Source of the DNA: Armatimonadota bacterium
GTDB lineage: Bacteria > Armatimonadota > Zipacnadia > Zipacnadales > UBA11051
Assembly: GCA_013178155.1 (NCBI GenBank)
Contig: JABLXH010000037.1
Coordinates: 1-44,438 of the forward strand
DNA: 44,438 bases
Direction of reading: 5' to 3'
Shown piece by piece: positions 33,758-40,617 of the stretch (positions are counted from its first letter, which is position 1; each line of letters starts with the position of its first letter). The notes below the pieces were generated by a model. The model was not told the DNA's origin and searched no databases. It saw nothing but the letters and a program-made list of their open reading frames with translations. The translations under genes were made by a program, and so were the position numbers.

Positions 33758-33845
33758 GAGGACAGCGCCAGGCGGATGCGGCTGTGGCGACTAGGTAGAT
33801 CCGCCTTCCGTCGGTCTCGGTGTGCACTGCTACAGGAGGTCTTGG

Positions 33846-34598
33846 TTGAGCGCGAGGCAGTTGGTTTACATGGACGAATCCGGGGACGCGGGTTTCAAGC
33901 TCGACAGGGGATCGAGCCCCGCCTTGGTCATTGCCGGTGTAATCTTCGATGACCCGGCCGATGCCCAGGCCACCGCCGACCGCATAGAGTTGCTGAGGGT
34001 GCAGTCTGGCCGAAGCTCGCGCTACCAGTTCCACTTCACCGATATGGATCGCCGCTCACGTGAGGACTTCTTCCGCGCGGTGCGCCTCTTTCCGTTCCGC
34101 GTGCGCGCTATTGTGATGGCGAAGGACCGTATCTACCCCGACAGTATGCTGCGCCGCCGCGGCGACTACTCTTACAGCTACACAGCTAAGATGCTGCTCA
34201 AGCATACCTTTGGCATGGTGGAGGAGGCGAAGCTCTTTGTGGACGGAGAGGCGGGGCGCCAGTCATTGCGTGAGATGGTCTCGTATCTTCGCCGGGAGTG
34301 CAACACGCCGGGGCTCAGGGTCATCAGGGAGGTGAGGTTCGTCCCGAAACGCGAGGGCAACGTCCTGCTGCAACTTGCCGACATGGTCACCAGCGGAATC
34401 GCCCGGTCATACCGAACGGACAAATCCGACCACAGGGTCTACCGAGAACTGATACAGCCACGACTGGAGGACGTGTGGGAGTTCGGACATCCTAAGAAAC
34501 CAGAAGTGAGACGGCCCCGTGACCTATCCTGCCATCAGCAGGCACGCGCTCCATTCGGAGACAGTTCGGACTACGGGGCCTCGGTAGTCTCATTGTAA
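33846..34598 (+). CDS. DUF3800-domain protein
   Basis: A TTG at 33846, six bases after AGGAGG, opens LSARQLVYMDESGDAGF; the YxDESGD motif is the hallmark of DUF3800, a compact RNase-H-like fold with conserved acidic residues. Supporting motifs are SPALVIAGVIFDD, YQFHFTDMD, LFVDGE and NVLLQLADMVTSGIARSY, the last being the conserved QLAD helix. The protein is 250 aa. DUF3800 proteins often sit in mobile or defence settings and their activity is not established. No other defence gene is nearby. The final 30 residues after DVWEFG look unrelated to the family and are encoded over an inverted repeat, so the natural stop may have been lost. Confidence 0.8.
   Translation: MSARQLVYMDESGDAGFKLDRGSSPALVIAGVIFDDPADAQATADRIELLRVQSGRSSRYQFHFTDMDRRSREDFFRAVRLFPFRVRAIVMAKDRIYPDSMLRRRGDYSYSYTAKMLLKHTFGMVEEAKLFVDGEAGRQSLREMVSYLRRECNTPGLRVIREVRFVPKREGNVLLQLADMVTSGIARSYRTDKSDHRVYRELIQPRLEDVWEFGHPKKPEVRRPRDLSCHQQARAPFGDSSDYGASVVSL
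34569..34589 (+). terminator. Hairpin at the 3' end of the DUF3800 gene
   Basis: GACTAC (34569-34574) pairs with GTAGTC (34584-34589) around a nine-base loop. The same bases can instead pair with GGCCCCGT at 34513-34520, giving two exclusive structures. It may be a weak terminator or structured RNA; it lies inside the reading frame's last codons. Confidence 0.3.
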
Positions 34599-34738
34599 CC
34601 AAAATGGGAGAGCTGTCAATACCGATAGAACATAAGTTCCATTCGCCCTTACAGAACTGCCAAGCGTCCAGCGGACGCAGGACACCCCTCTACCCTCAGC
34701 GAATCCCTCTCTCAACTCTCCCTGGGAGCGTCACCACC

Positions 34739-36019
34739 ATGCTTACGGGCCTTGTGATCACTGTCGGGTTGGCGTCGGCGAACATCGTGGGCAACACCAA
34801 CCGCGAGATTCAGGCGGCGGTGGACCGCGTGGCGGCTCATGGCGGCGGCGAGGTGCGGTTGCAGGCGGGGCTCTATGAGATGACGGACTCCCTGCACCTG
34901 CGCAGCGGCGTGCGGATTGTCGGCGAGGGGGAGAAGACGGTCCTGCGCAAGGCCGCCGCGGTCAGTTCGCCCATCATCGCCTACCTGGGCTATGGACACT
35001 ACGACATCTCCGTGGCCGAGCCAGACGAGTTCCGGGTCGGCGACGGGGTGCATATCCACGATGACAATAGCGGCGGGTTCTATGACACCGTCGCGACCAT
35101 CACCTGGCGGCGCGGTGACCTGCTGGGCATCAGCCGCTTCCTGAACCACGACTATGATGGGCGGGCGGGCGCCGTGGCCACCACCATCTTCCCGGTCATC
35201 AGCGGCTACCACCTGCAGAACGCCAGTGTCGAGAACCTGGCCATCGAGGGCAACAAGGAGGAAAACCCCTACCTGAACGGTTGTCGCGGCGGCGGCGTGT
35301 TCCTGTATCAGGCGCATGACGTGAAGCTCCGCAAGCTGTTCGTGCGCAACTACAACGGCGATGGCATCAGCTTCCAGCAGTGCCGCAACACCGTCGTCGA
35401 GGGCTGCCTCGTCGAGGGTTGCACCGGCCTGGGCCTGCACCCCGGTAGCGGGTCCGTGGGGCCCATCATGCGCAAGAACGTCAGCCGCAACAACGGGGGC
35501 GATGGCATCTTCTATTGCCTGCGGGTGTCGTATTCGCTGTGCGAGGGCAACATCATTGAGCGGAACGGGGGCTACGGCATCTCTATTGGCGGGCGCGACA
35601 CCGACCACCTGATCCGCGGCAACACCATCCGCCACAACGGCAAGGCGGGCATCTACTTCCGCCCCGGGGACCTGATCATGGCCGGCAGCCGTCAGGTCAT
35701 CGAGAAGAACGTGCTGGAGGGCAACTGCGTCACCGAGGGCACAGCCGAGGTGGACATCCAGGGGGAGACGCGCGACATTTACCTGCTGGACAACACCATC
35801 GTCCCCGGCCGACGCGGCGACGAGCGCCTGTACGCGCTGCTGCTGTGCCCGCAGGCTGACCGAATCGTCTTTGCAGGCAACCAGGTGCCCGGCCCGGCCA
35901 GTCGCGCCGTGGACAACCAGGCGGGCAAGTCAGCCCTGAGCACCGAACGCCCGGCCAAGCTGCTGCCGGTGGGGCCCAGGCACATCCCGGAGGGCGCGGC
36001 GGCCCATCTGGGCAACTGA
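34739..36019 (+). CDS. Secreted right-handed parallel beta-helix protein (pectate-lyase-like fold)
   Basis: The ATG at 34739 is ten bases after GGGAG and begins a short hydrophobic leader (MLTGLVITVGLASAN). Upstream in-frame ATG at 34604 adds a stretch without coding character. The product is 426 aa. It opens NREIQAAVDRVAAHGGGEVRLQAGLYEM, the standard entry cap of pectate-lyase-superfamily beta-helices. Repeated rungs follow: VRNYNGDGISFQQCRNTVVEGCLVEGCTGLGLH, RKNVSRNNGGDGIFYCLRVSYSLCEGNIIERNGGYGISIGG, RGNTIRHNGKAGIYFRPG. Members bind or cut polysaccharides; no catalytic Asp/Arg set can be assigned by eye. A strong hairpin follows the stop. Its substrate is unknown but the enzyme fits the carbohydrate theme. 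Confidence 0.75.
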   Translation: MLTGLVITVGLASANIVGNTNREIQAAVDRVAAHGGGEVRLQAGLYEMTDSLHLRSGVRIVGEGEKTVLRKAAAVSSPIIAYLGYGHYDISVAEPDEFRVGDGVHIHDDNSGGFYDTVATITWRRGDLLGISRFLNHDYDGRAGAVATTIFPVISGYHLQNASVENLAIEGNKEENPYLNGCRGGGVFLYQAHDVKLRKLFVRNYNGDGISFQQCRNTVVEGCLVEGCTGLGLHPGSGSVGPIMRKNVSRNNGGDGIFYCLRVSYSLCEGNIIERNGGYGISIGGRDTDHLIRGNTIRHNGKAGIYFRPGDLIMAGSRQVIEKNVLEGNCVTEGTAEVDIQGETRDIYLLDNTIVPGRRGDERLYALLLCPQADRIVFAGNQVPGPASRAVDNQAGKSALSTERPAKLLPVGPRHIPEGAAAHLGN

Positions 36020-36102: not shown

Positions 36103-37278
36103 TTAGCTCCCGGCTGGCCTCCAGGGGAGCTTGTGCTGAACCTTGCTGACCGCGTCGTAGCCCTTCCACATCATCAAGTGGTCGAGCAGTGTTATGGCCA
36201 TCATGGCCTCACCGACCGGTACGGCACGGCCGCAGATCTGGGCGTCGCGGCGGGTGATGGCCGACAGCACCGTCGGTTCCAGGGTCGCCATATTGACCGA
36301 GTCCTGGTCAATGGAGATGGTGGAGGTGGGCTTGACCACCATGCGAACGACGATGGTCTCGCCGTTGCTGATGCCGCCATCAATGCCGCCGGAGTGGTTG
36401 GTGCGGAAGCGAATCACATCGCCGTCGAGGTATGGAATGTCATTGGCCTCGGAACCCTTCTTCAGGGCGAGGCCGAAGCCGTCGCCGAACTCAACGCCCT
36501 TGACCGCCGGGATGCTTAGCAGAGCGTGGGCCAGTGTCGCGTCGAGCTTGTCAAACACCGGCTCGCCGAGCCCCGGAGGAACATTGCGCGCCAGGAGCTC
36601 GACGATCCCGCCGACGGTGTCCCCTTGCTCCTTCACCTCTAGCGCACGCTGCACCATGCGCTCCGCCGCTTCCAGATCAGGGCAACGAATATCGTTCTTG
36701 TCGCGGTTGGCTCGAATCTCATCGAAGCTCATCCCATCGCGCATCTTGATGCCGTGCAGCTCCTTGACATAGCCGATGACTTCGATGCCGTCCCGGGCCA
36801 GGATCTTCTTCGCCAAAGCTCCGGCGGCGACGCGTACGCAAGTCTCCCGGCCGCTGGCCCGCCCCGCGCCGCACCAATCCGCGTACTCATCGTACTTCGC
36901 CCGGTAGGTGTACTCGGCATGGCCTGGGCGGATGACGTCTTTCACTGCCCGATACTGCTGGATGTGGATGTCCTCGGTATCTACGTTGCGGATGAGTATC
37001 CCCACGGGGGCACCAGTAGTCTTCCCCTCAAAGATGCCCGAGAAGATCTCGCACTGATCGGTCTCCAGGCGCGGGGAATCGACGGGGCTGGTGCCCGGCC
37101 GGCGGCGGTCCAGCTCCGCCTGAATCTCATCACGTGAGAGCTCCATGCCAGCGGGCACGCCGTCACAGATGACCGCCAGGGCACCGCCGTATCTTTCCCC
37201 GTTAGCATCCTGAGTGCAGCCATACGACTCGCCGCACGCCGTGACTCGAAACAGCCTGCCAAAGGTGTTGCCCAACAT
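36103..37278 (-). CDS. aroC: Chorismate synthase, with altered active-site motif
   Basis: AroC converts 5-enolpyruvylshikimate-3-phosphate to chorismate with reduced FMN. The ATG at 37278 follows CGGAGGAGCGACACG. The product is 391 aa. Family landmarks are clear: GNTFGRLFRVT at the start, RRRPGTS, IRPGHAEYTY (His120 kept), RVAAGALAKK, VPPGLGEPVFDKLDA, SIPAVKGVEFGDGF, NHSGGIDGGISNG, VVKPTSTI and AVPVGEAMMAITLLDHL. Two places deviate. The usual GESHG is GESYG (Tyr19), followed by an 11-residue insert that repeats the pattern as GERYG. The usual GGGRSSARET is CGAGRASGRET after an acidic YDEYADW. The conserved first catalytic His is therefore absent. The gene is otherwise intact, and with aroA in the same direction it probably belongs to the shikimate pathway. 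Confidence 0.9.
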   Translation of the reverse strand: MLGNTFGRLFRVTACGESYGCTQDANGERYGGALAVICDGVPAGMELSRDEIQAELDRRRPGTSPVDSPRLETDQCEIFSGIFEGKTTGAPVGILIRNVDTEDIHIQQYRAVKDVIRPGHAEYTYRAKYDEYADWCGAGRASGRETCVRVAAGALAKKILARDGIEVIGYVKELHGIKMRDGMSFDEIRANRDKNDIRCPDLEAAERMVQRALEVKEQGDTVGGIVELLARNVPPGLGEPVFDKLDATLAHALLSIPAVKGVEFGDGFGLALKKGSEANDIPYLDGDVIRFRTNHSGGIDGGISNGETIVVRMVVKPTSTISIDQDSVNMATLEPTVLSAITRRDAQICGRAVPVGEAMMAITLLDHLMMWKGYDAVSKVQHKLPWRPAGS

Positions 37279-37412
37279 CGTGTCGCTCCTCCGATGTTCG
37301 GATTGAACTCATGTAATCAGGTCGGCAACAGCGCCCATGCGACCGGTCGCGGGACGCTTCCCCACTCGAAGCCTGCTGCCGGGAATGCCCGCTCTGCTCC
37401 CAGGGCCACCAA

Positions 37413-37458: not shown

Positions 37459-39243
37459 CTACTCGCCCCCGTACCATTCCCGGATCCGCTCAAACAGCGC
37501 CTCCGCGGCCTGCCGCGGGCCCTCGATCTCGTAGCCGTCGATGCCCAGGCGCGTCCGTAGCTGGCCCACCTTGACCCCCGCCTGGAAGGCCCCGGCGAAG
37601 TAGCGCCTGGCCAGCGGCTCGTGGAGGTCGCGCAACTGCTCGGCGCCAAAGGGGTTGGCGAAGTACGTGCGCACCAGACCCCTCTCGTCTGTCGTGCCTT
37701 TGGCGGCGCGGTAGCCGGCGCGGAACACCTCGAGAGCCTGCTCAGCATCCGTGAACAACTCCACCGCCGGCTGGCTCTCGGTCACGTCCTCATAGTTGTT
37801 GGCATAGAGCAGCAAGTCCACGGGGTAGCCGGCCACGACGTCGGCATACTCCGTCAACGGCACCACCAGCCGCGCGTTGTGGCGATGGGGGTTCATGAAG
37901 ATGCTGCGGTCGAAATGCCCGAAAGCATAGCCGGGCGACAGGTCGTCCAGACGGACGAAGGCCCCGATCTCGGTGCCATAGCCCAACAGGCGGCCGTCAG
38001 GCGTCAACTGGACCGAGCCCATGTCATCGAAGATAATGGTCATGTCGGAGATGTGCTCATCAGCCAACACCCGGAAGGCCTCAAGGGTCTCGGACTTGCC
38101 GGCGCCGCTATCACCGACGATAACCACGCTGAACCGCTGCCCGCTGCGCAGGCTCAGATAGCACATGGCTCCGTGCAGCGGTAGTCGGCCGCGGCGCATC
38201 ATGATGACGTTGTGCAGGGTCAGCGTCATCTTCTTGCAGTAGCCGAAATAGTCCACGTCCTCCGACTTGGCGACGGCCCCGACGACGATGTTCTCGTCCT
38301 CGTCCACGTAGAAGGCGGTAGGATGAACTCCCAGCCGTTCAGCCGGCAGGCCGAAGAGCACCACGCCGTCGGGCTTGCGCCGTGCTTCGTCATGCCCTGC
38401 CAGCTCAAAGAGATTGACGAGGCTCACCGCCAGGGCCAGATACTCACGATCGAAGTAGAAATGAAAAACCAGCTCGCCCACCAGCAGCGGGATGCACAGC
38501 CACTGCGCCGGATCCAGCTCGACTCCTTGCAGGGGATGCTCGTGGATCTGCTCAAAGCGGCCCTTGCGGGTGTTGCGTCGGGGGTAGAGCGTCACCGGCG
38601 GCACCAACAGGGCCAGGCGCACCATCCGGATGGGGTCCAGTGCGGCATAGACGCCGCCGGGGTTCTGCCAGGCGATGCGCTCCAGCAGCAGACTCATGTT
38701 GGCGCCGGCAGGCACCTGGCGGTAGACCCGGGGCCAGTGCCCCCGCAGGTTGCGTTCGATGCGGCGGTAAGCCTCACGGGTCAGCGAACTCAGGTCCTGG
38801 TTGTTGAAGATGAAGGGCCGGTGGCCCTCGATGGCCCGGTCTCGGGTCTCGCTGGCCCTGGCCTCAAAGAGCAGATAGCGCTCGTAATGGCGCCAGTGAT
38901 CGTAGAGGTCCTCCACGAAACGGGCCAGGGCCATGGGGTCGGTCACCAGGTAGCCCAGGTCAGGCGCGCGCACCGACAGCTCCTGCCAGGTCAGGTCGCA
39001 CAGCAGGGCCAGGGCTCGCGCCAGGTCCTGGGCCGCGTCAGACGGGTGCGCCCGGTCGCCTGCAGTGTCCCGCTGCCCACAGACATGGAGCAGATCCGAC
39101 TGGCGCTGGCGCAGGTCATTCAGGAAGTTCTGGATGACTGCCACAGCCTGCGGTGCCTGCAGCACTTGCGCCGGCTGGGTGCACACCGCACCCGTCATGT
39201 AGATCATGACACTGCGGTCATTCACTTCACCCGCTATGTCCAT
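37459..39243 (-). CDS. HPr-kinase/PEPCK-superfamily P-loop protein of unknown function
   Basis: The ATG at 39243 begins a 594-aa cytosolic protein. Residues about 1-250 are helical (FVEDLYDHWRHYERYLLFE, VYRQVPAGANMSLLLERI). From about 350 there is a nucleotide-binding domain: LPLHGAMCYLSL, then VIVGDSGAGKSET (Walker A GDSGAGKSE at 377-385, the form used by HPr kinase), IIFDDMGSV (Asp406-Asp407, Walker B-like), GYGTEIGAFVRLDDL, and a Pro/Tyr/Asn-rich run VVPLTEYADVVAGYPVDLLLYANNYE. This order fits the HprK/PEP-carboxykinase superfamily. The lengthy N-terminal part and absence of the PEPCK lysine signature argue against classical enzymes. A protein-kinase or phosphotransferase role is possible. 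It lies between aroA and aroC with 108- and 180-base gaps. Confidence 0.5.
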   Translation of the reverse strand: MDIAGEVNDRSVMIYMTGAVCTQPAQVLQAPQAVAVIQNFLNDLRQRQSDLLHVCGQRDTAGDRAHPSDAAQDLARALALLCDLTWQELSVRAPDLGYLVTDPMALARFVEDLYDHWRHYERYLLFEARASETRDRAIEGHRPFIFNNQDLSSLTREAYRRIERNLRGHWPRVYRQVPAGANMSLLLERIAWQNPGGVYAALDPIRMVRLALLVPPVTLYPRRNTRKGRFEQIHEHPLQGVELDPAQWLCIPLLVGELVFHFYFDREYLALAVSLVNLFELAGHDEARRKPDGVVLFGLPAERLGVHPTAFYVDEDENIVVGAVAKSEDVDYFGYCKKMTLTLHNVIMMRRGRLPLHGAMCYLSLRSGQRFSVVIVGDSGAGKSETLEAFRVLADEHISDMTIIFDDMGSVQLTPDGRLLGYGTEIGAFVRLDDLSPGYAFGHFDRSIFMNPHRHNARLVVPLTEYADVVAGYPVDLLLYANNYEDVTESQPAVELFTDAEQALEVFRAGYRAAKGTTDERGLVRTYFANPFGAEQLRDLHEPLARRYFAGAFQAGVKVGQLRTRLGIDGYEIEGPRQAAEALFERIREWYGGE

Positions 39244-39351: not shown

Positions 39352-40617
39352 TCAGCCCATCTTCATGTCTGCCCCCAGGCCAGTCATCAGTTCCACAAAG
39401 GTCGGGAAGGTCACACCGATGGCCTCCGCCGTGCTGATCGTCAAGGGGCTATCGGCGTAGAGCCCGGCCACCGCCAGGGCCATGACGACCCGGTGGTCGC
39501 CGTGGCCGTCAGCGCGCCCACCCTTGAGCCTTCCGCCGCGGATGACCAGACCATCGTCCAGTTCTGTAACGTCTGCGCCCAGGTTCCTGAGTTCCTGCGC
39601 CATCACCGCCAGGCGGTCGGTTTCCTTCAGCCGGGCCTGGGGCACATTGCCCAGGCGTGTCTCACCCTCGGCCAGAGCCGCCACCACCGCCAGGGCCGGC
39701 AGCGCGTCAGGGGTTGCGTTCAGGTCCAGATCGGCGCCATGCAGGCCCTTGCCCCGCACGCGCAAGCCCTCTGGTCCTTCCGTGATGTCCGCACCCATGG
39801 CCCGCAGCATGTGCACAACCGCCTTGTCGCCCTGGCTGTCGGTCATGTCCACGCCACGGACCAGCACCTCCGCCGGCCCCAGCGCCGCCGCGCACAGGAA
39901 AAAGGTCGCCGAGGAGAAGTCAGCCGGAATGGTCCGGTCGAAGGCAGTATAGCGCTGTCGGCCCGGGATACGGAACCGCTGCAGCCCCTCAGCCTCATAG
40001 CAGACGCCCTGTTGGTCAAGCCAGTCGAGCGTCATCTGCACGTAGGGCCGTTCATTCAGCAGCGGCACCTCGATCTGGGTGTCACCCAGGGCCAGAGGGC
40101 AGTTCAGCAGCAGGCTGGTCAAATACTGTGACGTCGGGCACTCGATGCAGACCTGCCCACCCTGCAGCGGCCCCCGAACCACCAGCGGAGCGCAGCCATT
40201 GTCCCGCGTCGAAAAGGCCATCGCCCCCAGCGTCTCGAGTGCCTGCAGCAGCGGGCCCGCGGAGCGGCGGCGTATCTGTTGGTCCCCGGTAAAGACCGTG
40301 TAGCCCGTCCCCAGGCAGGCTGACGCCAGAGCGATATAGAGTGTTGTGCCCGAGTTGCCGACATCCACCACGTTGTCCGGGGTCTGGACCCGGCACCCGA
40401 CGCCTTGGACGGTCCACACCTCGCCGATCTCGATGGCGGCTCCGAGAGACCGGTACACTCGCACCGCTGCCTCCGTGTCCGCAGACACGAGGGGCCGGCG
40501 GATGTGCGACACTCCCTCAGCCAAAGCAGCGATCGCGACCGCACGGATCGTGTGGCTCTTGGAGCCGGGAATGTCCACCACTCCGGCGATGGTTGACGGA
40601 CGACAACGCAGTTCCAT
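39352..40617 (-). CDS. aroA: 3-phosphoshikimate 1-carboxyvinyltransferase (EPSP synthase), divergent
   Basis: AroA joins shikimate-3-phosphate and PEP to give EPSP, the substrate of AroC. The ATG at 40617 gives 421 aa, the normal length. Landmarks: VDIPGSKSHTIRAVAIAALAEG (GSKS phosphate loop, 18-21), VVDVGNSGTTLYIALA, FTGDQQIRRRSAGPLLQAL, PTSQYLTSLLLNCPLA, IPADFSSATFFLCAAAL, RLKETDRLAVMAQELRNLGADV and GHGDHRVVMALAVAG. The LGNAGTAMRP motif of class I enzymes reads VGNSGTTLYI, so the usual Arg and Pro are missing, and GEPRMKERP reads GDQQIRRRSA. This marks a distinct subclass that may differ in glyphosate response. A promoter lies within the end of vapC and a 35-base hairpin lies between it and the start. 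Confidence 0.9.
   Translation of the reverse strand: MELRCRPSTIAGVVDIPGSKSHTIRAVAIAALAEGVSHIRRPLVSADTEAAVRVYRSLGAAIEIGEVWTVQGVGCRVQTPDNVVDVGNSGTTLYIALASACLGTGYTVFTGDQQIRRRSAGPLLQALETLGAMAFSTRDNGCAPLVVRGPLQGGQVCIECPTSQYLTSLLLNCPLALGDTQIEVPLLNERPYVQMTLDWLDQQGVCYEAEGLQRFRIPGRQRYTAFDRTIPADFSSATFFLCAAALGPAEVLVRGVDMTDSQGDKAVVHMLRAMGADITEGPEGLRVRGKGLHGADLDLNATPDALPALAVVAALAEGETRLGNVPQARLKETDRLAVMAQELRNLGADVTELDDGLVIRGGRLKGGRADGHGDHRVVMALAVAGLYADSPLTISTAEAIGVTFPTFVELMTGLGADMKMG

Follow-up and report, generated by a model that had tools for sequence, protein, structure and literature searches.

Chorismate synthase (CS) catalyses the formation of chorismate, from which aromatic amino acids are made. 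It is a flavin enzyme that works without net redox change, a drug target, and its substrate is the product of EPSP synthase (AroA). The locus described here lies in a stretch of 44,438 nucleotides from an Armatimonadota bacterium (contig JABLXH010000037.1), which was analysed as a whole and is referred to as the window. It encodes a CS with a tyrosine at the place of the first catalytic histidine, which raises the question of whether this is a working CS and, if so, what replaces the histidine. Passages of PMC2386126 and PMC7144000 place this histidine beside the EPSP phosphate, which it is proposed to protonate on leaving, and a passage of the former states that it is present across all known species. 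The gene and its relevant parts are located as follows.

36103..37278, minus strand: chorismate synthase gene (aroC) of the Tyr type, 391 aa, with an ATG start and profile matches
37219..37233, minus strand: GESYG, residues 16-20, with Tyr in 49/49 clade members versus 0/100 others
37222-37224, minus strand: codon of Tyr19, at the position of His10 (S. pneumoniae) or His17 (fungal) in other CS
37186..37218, minus strand: 11-residue insert CTQDANGERYG, residues 21-31, missing in the sister genus G258
36964..36966, minus strand: His105, a candidate helper residue, 4 residues ahead of the loop Tyr that precedes RPGHA
36913..36921, minus strand: His120 (the retained second catalytic His) to Glu122, the latter being Asp in 100/100 other CS
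36841..36870, minus strand: GAGRASGRET, residues 137-146, with Ser142 and Arg144 kept and Ala138 fixed in the clade
36244..36252, minus strand: Arg343-Arg344-Asp345, conserving Arg337 and the active-site base Asp339 in S. pneumoniae numbering

The window protein scores above the curated cut-offs of three CS profiles (PF01264, 395.8 bits versus 27; NF003793, 414.1 versus 321; TIGR00033, 394.6 versus 212.2), and the matches span almost its entire length. Its relatives L059, L034 and L037 likewise exceed the curated CS cut-offs. The original prediction, made from the window alone, described a CS lacking the first catalytic histidine, and this is borne out by the translation: the first signature position (His10/His17/His11) is Tyr, and GESYG is followed directly by CTQDANGERYG. 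The second histidine is retained within RPGHA (residues 117-121), and GAGRASGRET lies at residues 137-146, both as predicted. The further claim that all other landmarks are intact nearly holds, the exceptions being Glu in place of the Asp of RPGHAD and TRRDA in place of a GRHDP-like motif. On direct reading, GESY does not fit the first CS signature of PROSITE, G-x-S-H.

The tyrosine is not the peculiarity of a single protein that had been supposed. GESYG is the hallmark of a single CS branch with strong support, and at least 49 genomes from three phyla share it. An alignment with CS of Armatimonadota and neighbouring groups, which the original prediction had proposed as a check, compared 49 Tyr-type proteins with 100 other CS, comprising 98 from loci together with S. 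pneumoniae 1qxo and yeast 1r52, whose sequences were taken from printed alignments. The residue after GES is Tyr in all 49 clade members and His in all 100 others, the latter being a biased sample picked by similarity to the window protein and belonging mostly to two phyla. Locus L175 was left out because its N-terminus is missing. In an earlier, smaller comparison, 31 Tyr types stood against 100 others with His. The 49 distinct genomes comprise 24 Armatimonadota (including L059, which carries the depositor name Abditibacteriota), 22 Planctomycetota and 3 Latescibacterota, and these counts are lower bounds because the DWCGAGR probe described below misses Tyr types that do not contain this sequence.

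A search of 80 chosen genomes with the window protein gave a match in 77. Ten proteins were 63-67% identical to it, and the remaining matches were at most 49% identical over the matched pieces. Thirty of these proteins were read: the 10 close ones have GESYG, whereas the 20 distant ones have GESH, including one GTSH (L103). The sequence DWCGAGR is typical of the close group, and a DNA pattern for it served as a probe. This pattern was present in 34 of 291 Armatimonadota genomes (2 for the reversed-pattern control) and lay within a Tyr-type CS gene in 23 of the 34; matches in the other 11, and in G855, are located outside CS and were not counted. The Tyr type of G247 reads DWRGAGR and was found through the protein search only. 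A search with the window protein in 64 Latescibacterota genomes yielded 3 Tyr types (30 matches read). A phylum-wide sample of Planctomycetota contained the pattern in 2 of 392 genomes, both already known (control, 3). Within the class to which the genome of L033 belongs (Phycisphaerae), it was present in 20 of 397 genomes (control, 3), and 19 of these matches, L033 among them, lie within CS; L037 contributes one further Tyr-type genome. No description of a Tyr-type CS was found in a literature search at the level of titles and abstract starts.

We built a tree only on sequence downstream of the trait, with the trait columns excluded. Its 95 rows comprise every Tyr type known at that stage (31) and 64 of the other 100 CS, subsampled at a regular step. 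The Tyr types form one side of a branch with a support of 100/99, which corresponds to a single change. A caution applies to L049 and L103, two long His-type rows placed elsewhere in this tree. Planctomycetota and Latescibacterota Tyr types are interspersed among those of Armatimonadota. His-type CS are also found in the same phyla (Armatimonadota and Latescibacterota; L002-L031, L101-L120, L155-L181), and His and Tyr types occur within one Armatimonadota family, f45 (G238 versus G236). This intermixing suggests transfer between lineages. The neighbouring aroA products are close to that of the window (473 bits for L034, 489 for L033 and 485 for L032), and the CS-aroA pair may thus have moved together. 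The His type of G238, L103, is a long-branch CS with GTSHG, in which Thr replaces the conserved Glu of the first motif and the His is kept; its flank contains an aroA-like ORF.

Compared with S. pneumoniae CS (1qxo, a complex with FMN and EPSP), the clade keeps the other catalytic residues. Ser9, Arg39, Arg107, His110, Ser132 and Arg134 (S. pneumoniae numbering) are conserved in 49/49 Tyr types, and Lys311, Arg337 and Asp339 in all 47 that cover them, two copies being cut short. Besides the replacement of His10 by Tyr, the Asp112 position holds Glu in 48 and Asn in one of the 49 but Asp in 100/100 others, and Arg replaces His/Ser338 (Ser in 1qxo) in 28/28 Tyr types of the first set. Asp67, Ser68 and Ala138 (49/49) as well as Cys15 and Cys136 (48/49 each) are fixed in the clade and rare elsewhere. 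In three Planctomycetota Tyr types (L186, L196 and L197), RPAHAE is found in place of RPGHAE.

The loop ahead of RPGHA exceeds that of the aligned His-type CS by 3 residues and has a His, 4 residues ahead of a conserved Tyr, in 49/49 Tyr types. The same place in the 98 other CS is occupied by Arg in 53, His in 9, Lys in 7, Gln in 3, Ile in 2 and Asn in 2, and 22 do not have the loop motif, so that the residue is basic in 69 of the 76 with the motif. A reading of this His as a brand-new invariant residue was softened accordingly, because the gap was the aligner's and R/K/H are present in most other CS with the motif. In the gapped column, where insert-bearing rows show their second, downstream letter, the 49 Tyr types have Tyr in 43, Trp in 4, Val in 1 and His in 1. 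The first GESYG Tyr is thus invariant and the second is not, so that Tyr19 is more likely than the downstream Tyr to occupy the catalytic position.

AlphaFold2 models of the window protein (pLDDT 86) and of its relative L059 (pLDDT 90.5) both predict the CS fold. All 28 PDB chains found with the window model at E<=0.001 are CS, and the L059 model gives Z scores of 30.8-43.6 with 20 CS entries, unrelated rows reaching at most 4.0. The L059 model is similar to Candida lusitaniae Aro2p (7rca) over 350 residues (Z 43.6) and to 1qxo (Z 41.2). Fungal-type CS (7rca; yeast 1r52) share with the clade an RRRPG-type loop, the flavin-side His and the base Asp. They differ by GESHC in yeast, by an Asp after RPSHA, by the absence of the insert and by a loop Arg where the clade has His. 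The nearest solved sequences, from Acinetobacter baumannii and Pseudomonas aeruginosa (4lj2 and 5z9a; 301.8 and 303.2 bits), differ from the window protein by GESH, RPGHAD or RPAHAD, and GGGRSSARET. The His-type CS of Armatimonadota and Latescibacterota belong to the same family, do not exceed 51% identity with the window protein, and all have GESH except for GTSH in L103. In the window model, the insert follows the first strand and is of low confidence, with pLDDT <50 at residues 19-21.

The insert is missing in the sister genus G258 and in five other genomes of the family, and was observed at this site in none of the 100 His-type proteins. Seventeen Planctomycetota proteins have an insert at the same place, of 11 residues in 14 and 12 in 3, frequently as GESYGWHATAE..GYGG, which has few residues in common with that of the window. 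Insert bearers therefore make up 18 of the 49 Tyr types, and 31 are without it. A tree of 57 rows with the insert columns left out requires two changes, and an AU test rejects a single clade of all 18 insert bearers (p-AU 1.1e-6), which speaks against a single origin; the insert thus arose on at least two occasions, or else an exchange of an N-terminal piece took place. In L183-L198 and L200 the insert often starts with W-H, which positions a His 3 residues after the Tyr at the catalytic position; other Planctomycetota inserts start with WSA, WRA, WKA, WSM or WRM. An insert unique to the window species had been considered, as a scan with the peptide YGCTQDAN brought no insert bearer, before the Planctomycetota inserts were found.

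The original prediction gave weight to the repeated G-E-x-Y-G, but this repeat is a coincidence. The two 15-base G-E-x-Y-G stretches agree at only 9/15 bases, which speaks against a tandem duplication, and the genome contains no second copy of the 33 bases with up to 3 mismatches, which speaks against a dispersed in-frame repeat. Within 37100-37340 a single direct repeat was detected, a pair of 12 bases (92%; 37155-37166 and 37234-37245), which encloses the GESYG and insert codons without joining the motifs and may be due to chance.

Two genes lie upstream of aroC on the same strand.

39352..40617, minus strand: aroA, EPSP synthase (PF00275; TIGR01356, 393 bits versus a cut-off of 287)
37459..39243, minus strand: 594-aa protein between aroA and aroC, with a faint phosphoenolpyruvate carboxykinase likeness

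A canonical aroC elsewhere in the genome had been named in the original prediction as a point to check. A PF01264 profile search of the window genome (5.53 Mb, 95.6% complete, 211 contigs) found no further match. Across the clade, 48 of the 49 genomes have no PF01264 match other than the Tyr type, a count in which a second CS could be missed since the named genomes are metagenome-assembled and incomplete. The remaining genome, G1001, encodes a His type (L202) alongside a truncated Tyr type (L200, G1001:C301), whose similarity ends at query residue 181 while about 580 bases of the contig remain; it is either a remnant or a mis-binned contig. Users of chorismate are present in all 24 Armatimonadota Tyr-type genomes, namely prephenate dehydratase and a chorismate-binding enzyme (PF00425). 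An aroA gene is located upstream on the same strand at 21 of 24 distinct loci, including the window (L032 and L141 being one contig), and at 10 of 18 further Planctomycetota loci with flanks of up to ~1.5 kb. It is missing from the upstream flank covered at L036 (~4.9 kb), L035 (1.1 kb) and L037 (0.3 kb). An aroA-like ORF is also found near CS at 14 of 98 His-type loci, 13 of them Bacillota, most of the 98 having only 1.5 kb of flank. The linkage supports a CS function, yet it is not special to the Tyr clade.

The interpretation that we favor, with a probability of about 0.65, is that the window protein is a working CS of a divergent branch in which the hydroxyl of Tyr19 takes over the contact of the histidine with the leaving phosphate. 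We infer the CS activity, indirectly from the single copy, the aroA linkage and the chorismate users, as well as the placement of Tyr19 in the pocket and the roles of Tyr19, His105 and Glu122. On the tree, the first "invariant" His was changed to Tyr once, and the Tyr has persisted. The Tyr19 hydroxyl would contact the EPSP 3-phosphate as a hydrogen-bond donor, and perhaps as a general acid, while neutralisation of the phosphate would fall to the retained arginines, which would bear most of the charge; the clade-specific His105 and Glu122 possibly assist. The flavin part is unchanged: His120 on the flavin side, Asp345, the base priming N5, and Ser18, Ser142 and Arg144 are all in place. The insert is most likely a later, tolerated elaboration directly after the active-site strand. 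A passage of PMC3509576 locates the other His near flavin N1 and reports a 20-fold cost of its mutation, as compared with 300-600-fold for the active-site base Asp. According to a passage of PMC2386126, the flavin reductase of bifunctional CS, which have their own NAD(P)H flavin reductase, is not predictable from sequence.

A broader claim is that the active site as a whole has been redesigned, with the Tyr, the Glu and a loop extended by 3 residues and containing an invariant His, such that the leaving phosphate is handled differently, and that this design spread between phyla, perhaps with aroA. We regard it as a tentative proposal, somewhat less probable than its negation. A narrower one is that the protein is a true CS in which Tyr19 is chemically idle and fills space, the arginines alone, or His105, providing the proton. 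The His17 mutant in a study of His17 and His106 (J Biol Chem 2004) reportedly retains some activity. The idle-tyrosine alternative would fit the presence of His105 in 49/49 Tyr types, a passage of PMC12697075 that leaves room for non-His acids such as arginines near the phosphate, and the three-step QM/MM mechanism reviewed in PMC7144000, in which the proton steps named in the passage involve the flavin and D339. A mere filler, however, is at odds with a Tyr that is as invariant as the catalytic residues, with no Phe, Leu or other filler in any of the 49, and the basic residue at the place of His105 in most other CS with the motif means that this His is not plainly a new part. We therefore judge an idle Tyr19 unlikely, though it deserves serious weight. 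Of similar standing is the proposal that the insert is a functional module, for instance a lid of the phosphate pocket or a subunit contact, that was co-selected with the Tyr. It is compatible with the other readings, and its recurrence by at least two gains at the same site, with near-equal length and in this sample only in Tyr types (18/49 versus 0/100), speaks for it. The 31 Tyr types without an insert, the small number of residues shared by the window and Planctomycetota inserts, and the absence of a confident shape in the model make such a module doubtful.

The unusual pocket could also reflect a changed substrate. In that case the clade would act on a compound other than EPSP, and chorismate would be made otherwise or imported. 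The joint alteration of His10 and Asp112, both invariant in the 100 other CS, and the several clade-fixed pocket neighbours would be expected from such a shift, but it would have occurred in genomes in which, for 48 of 49, no other CS homologue was found, in which chorismate users are present wherever they were checked (24/24), and in which aroA is adjacent at most loci. Since the window protein and three relatives also pass curated equivalog cut-offs, we consider a changed function improbable. Least credible of all is that the Tyr and the insert result from an assembly error or relaxed selection. The assembly is fragmented into 211 contigs and the sister genus has no insert, yet the identical Tyr is present in 48 other genomes, 17 other proteins carry inserts of 11-12 residues at this site, and the reading frame is intact across the 33-base insert. 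The end branch of the window row (0.064) is shorter than that of its insert-free sister (0.15). Selection on the gene is purifying, as calculated with our own Nei-Gojobori script: over 378 codons compared with G258, dN is 0.11 and dS 0.82, for a dN/dS of ~0.14. The gene is thus not decayed, in agreement with the original prediction.

The Tyr-type CS is a genuine and conserved form of a known enzyme, for which CS activity is the function that we infer. If its members are CS, the clade contradicts the passage of PMC2386126 on a histidine found across all known species. These mostly single-copy Tyr enzymes of scattered uncultured bacteria provide a natural test of a textbook residue. Activity of these enzymes would mean that the His is replaceable, and kinetics and pH profiles could then separate its acid, hydrogen-bond and electrostatic roles. 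Should the redesign proposal be true, the "universal" His would not be required and the reaction would have two natural solutions. For annotation, the aroC of Tyr-type lineages would escape a search based on the GESH motif.

Further observations concern the surroundings of the gene and more distant homologs. The 594-aa protein scores 18.5 bits with the phosphoenolpyruvate carboxykinase profile, far under the cut-off of 369, and has no Pfam match. It contains a P-loop-like stretch, GDSGAGKSE. It is also found between aroA and aroC in the sister genus G258 (L132) and has no match at the other aroA/aroC loci compared for synteny. A DUF3800 protein (33822-34598, plus strand) lies two genes away from aroC and adjoins a right-handed beta-helix protein (34604-36019). 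Finally, a third, very divergent set of CS-like proteins is present in 23 Latescibacterota genomes (G725-G749 except G730 and G743), the best pieces of which are 29-39% identical to the window protein.
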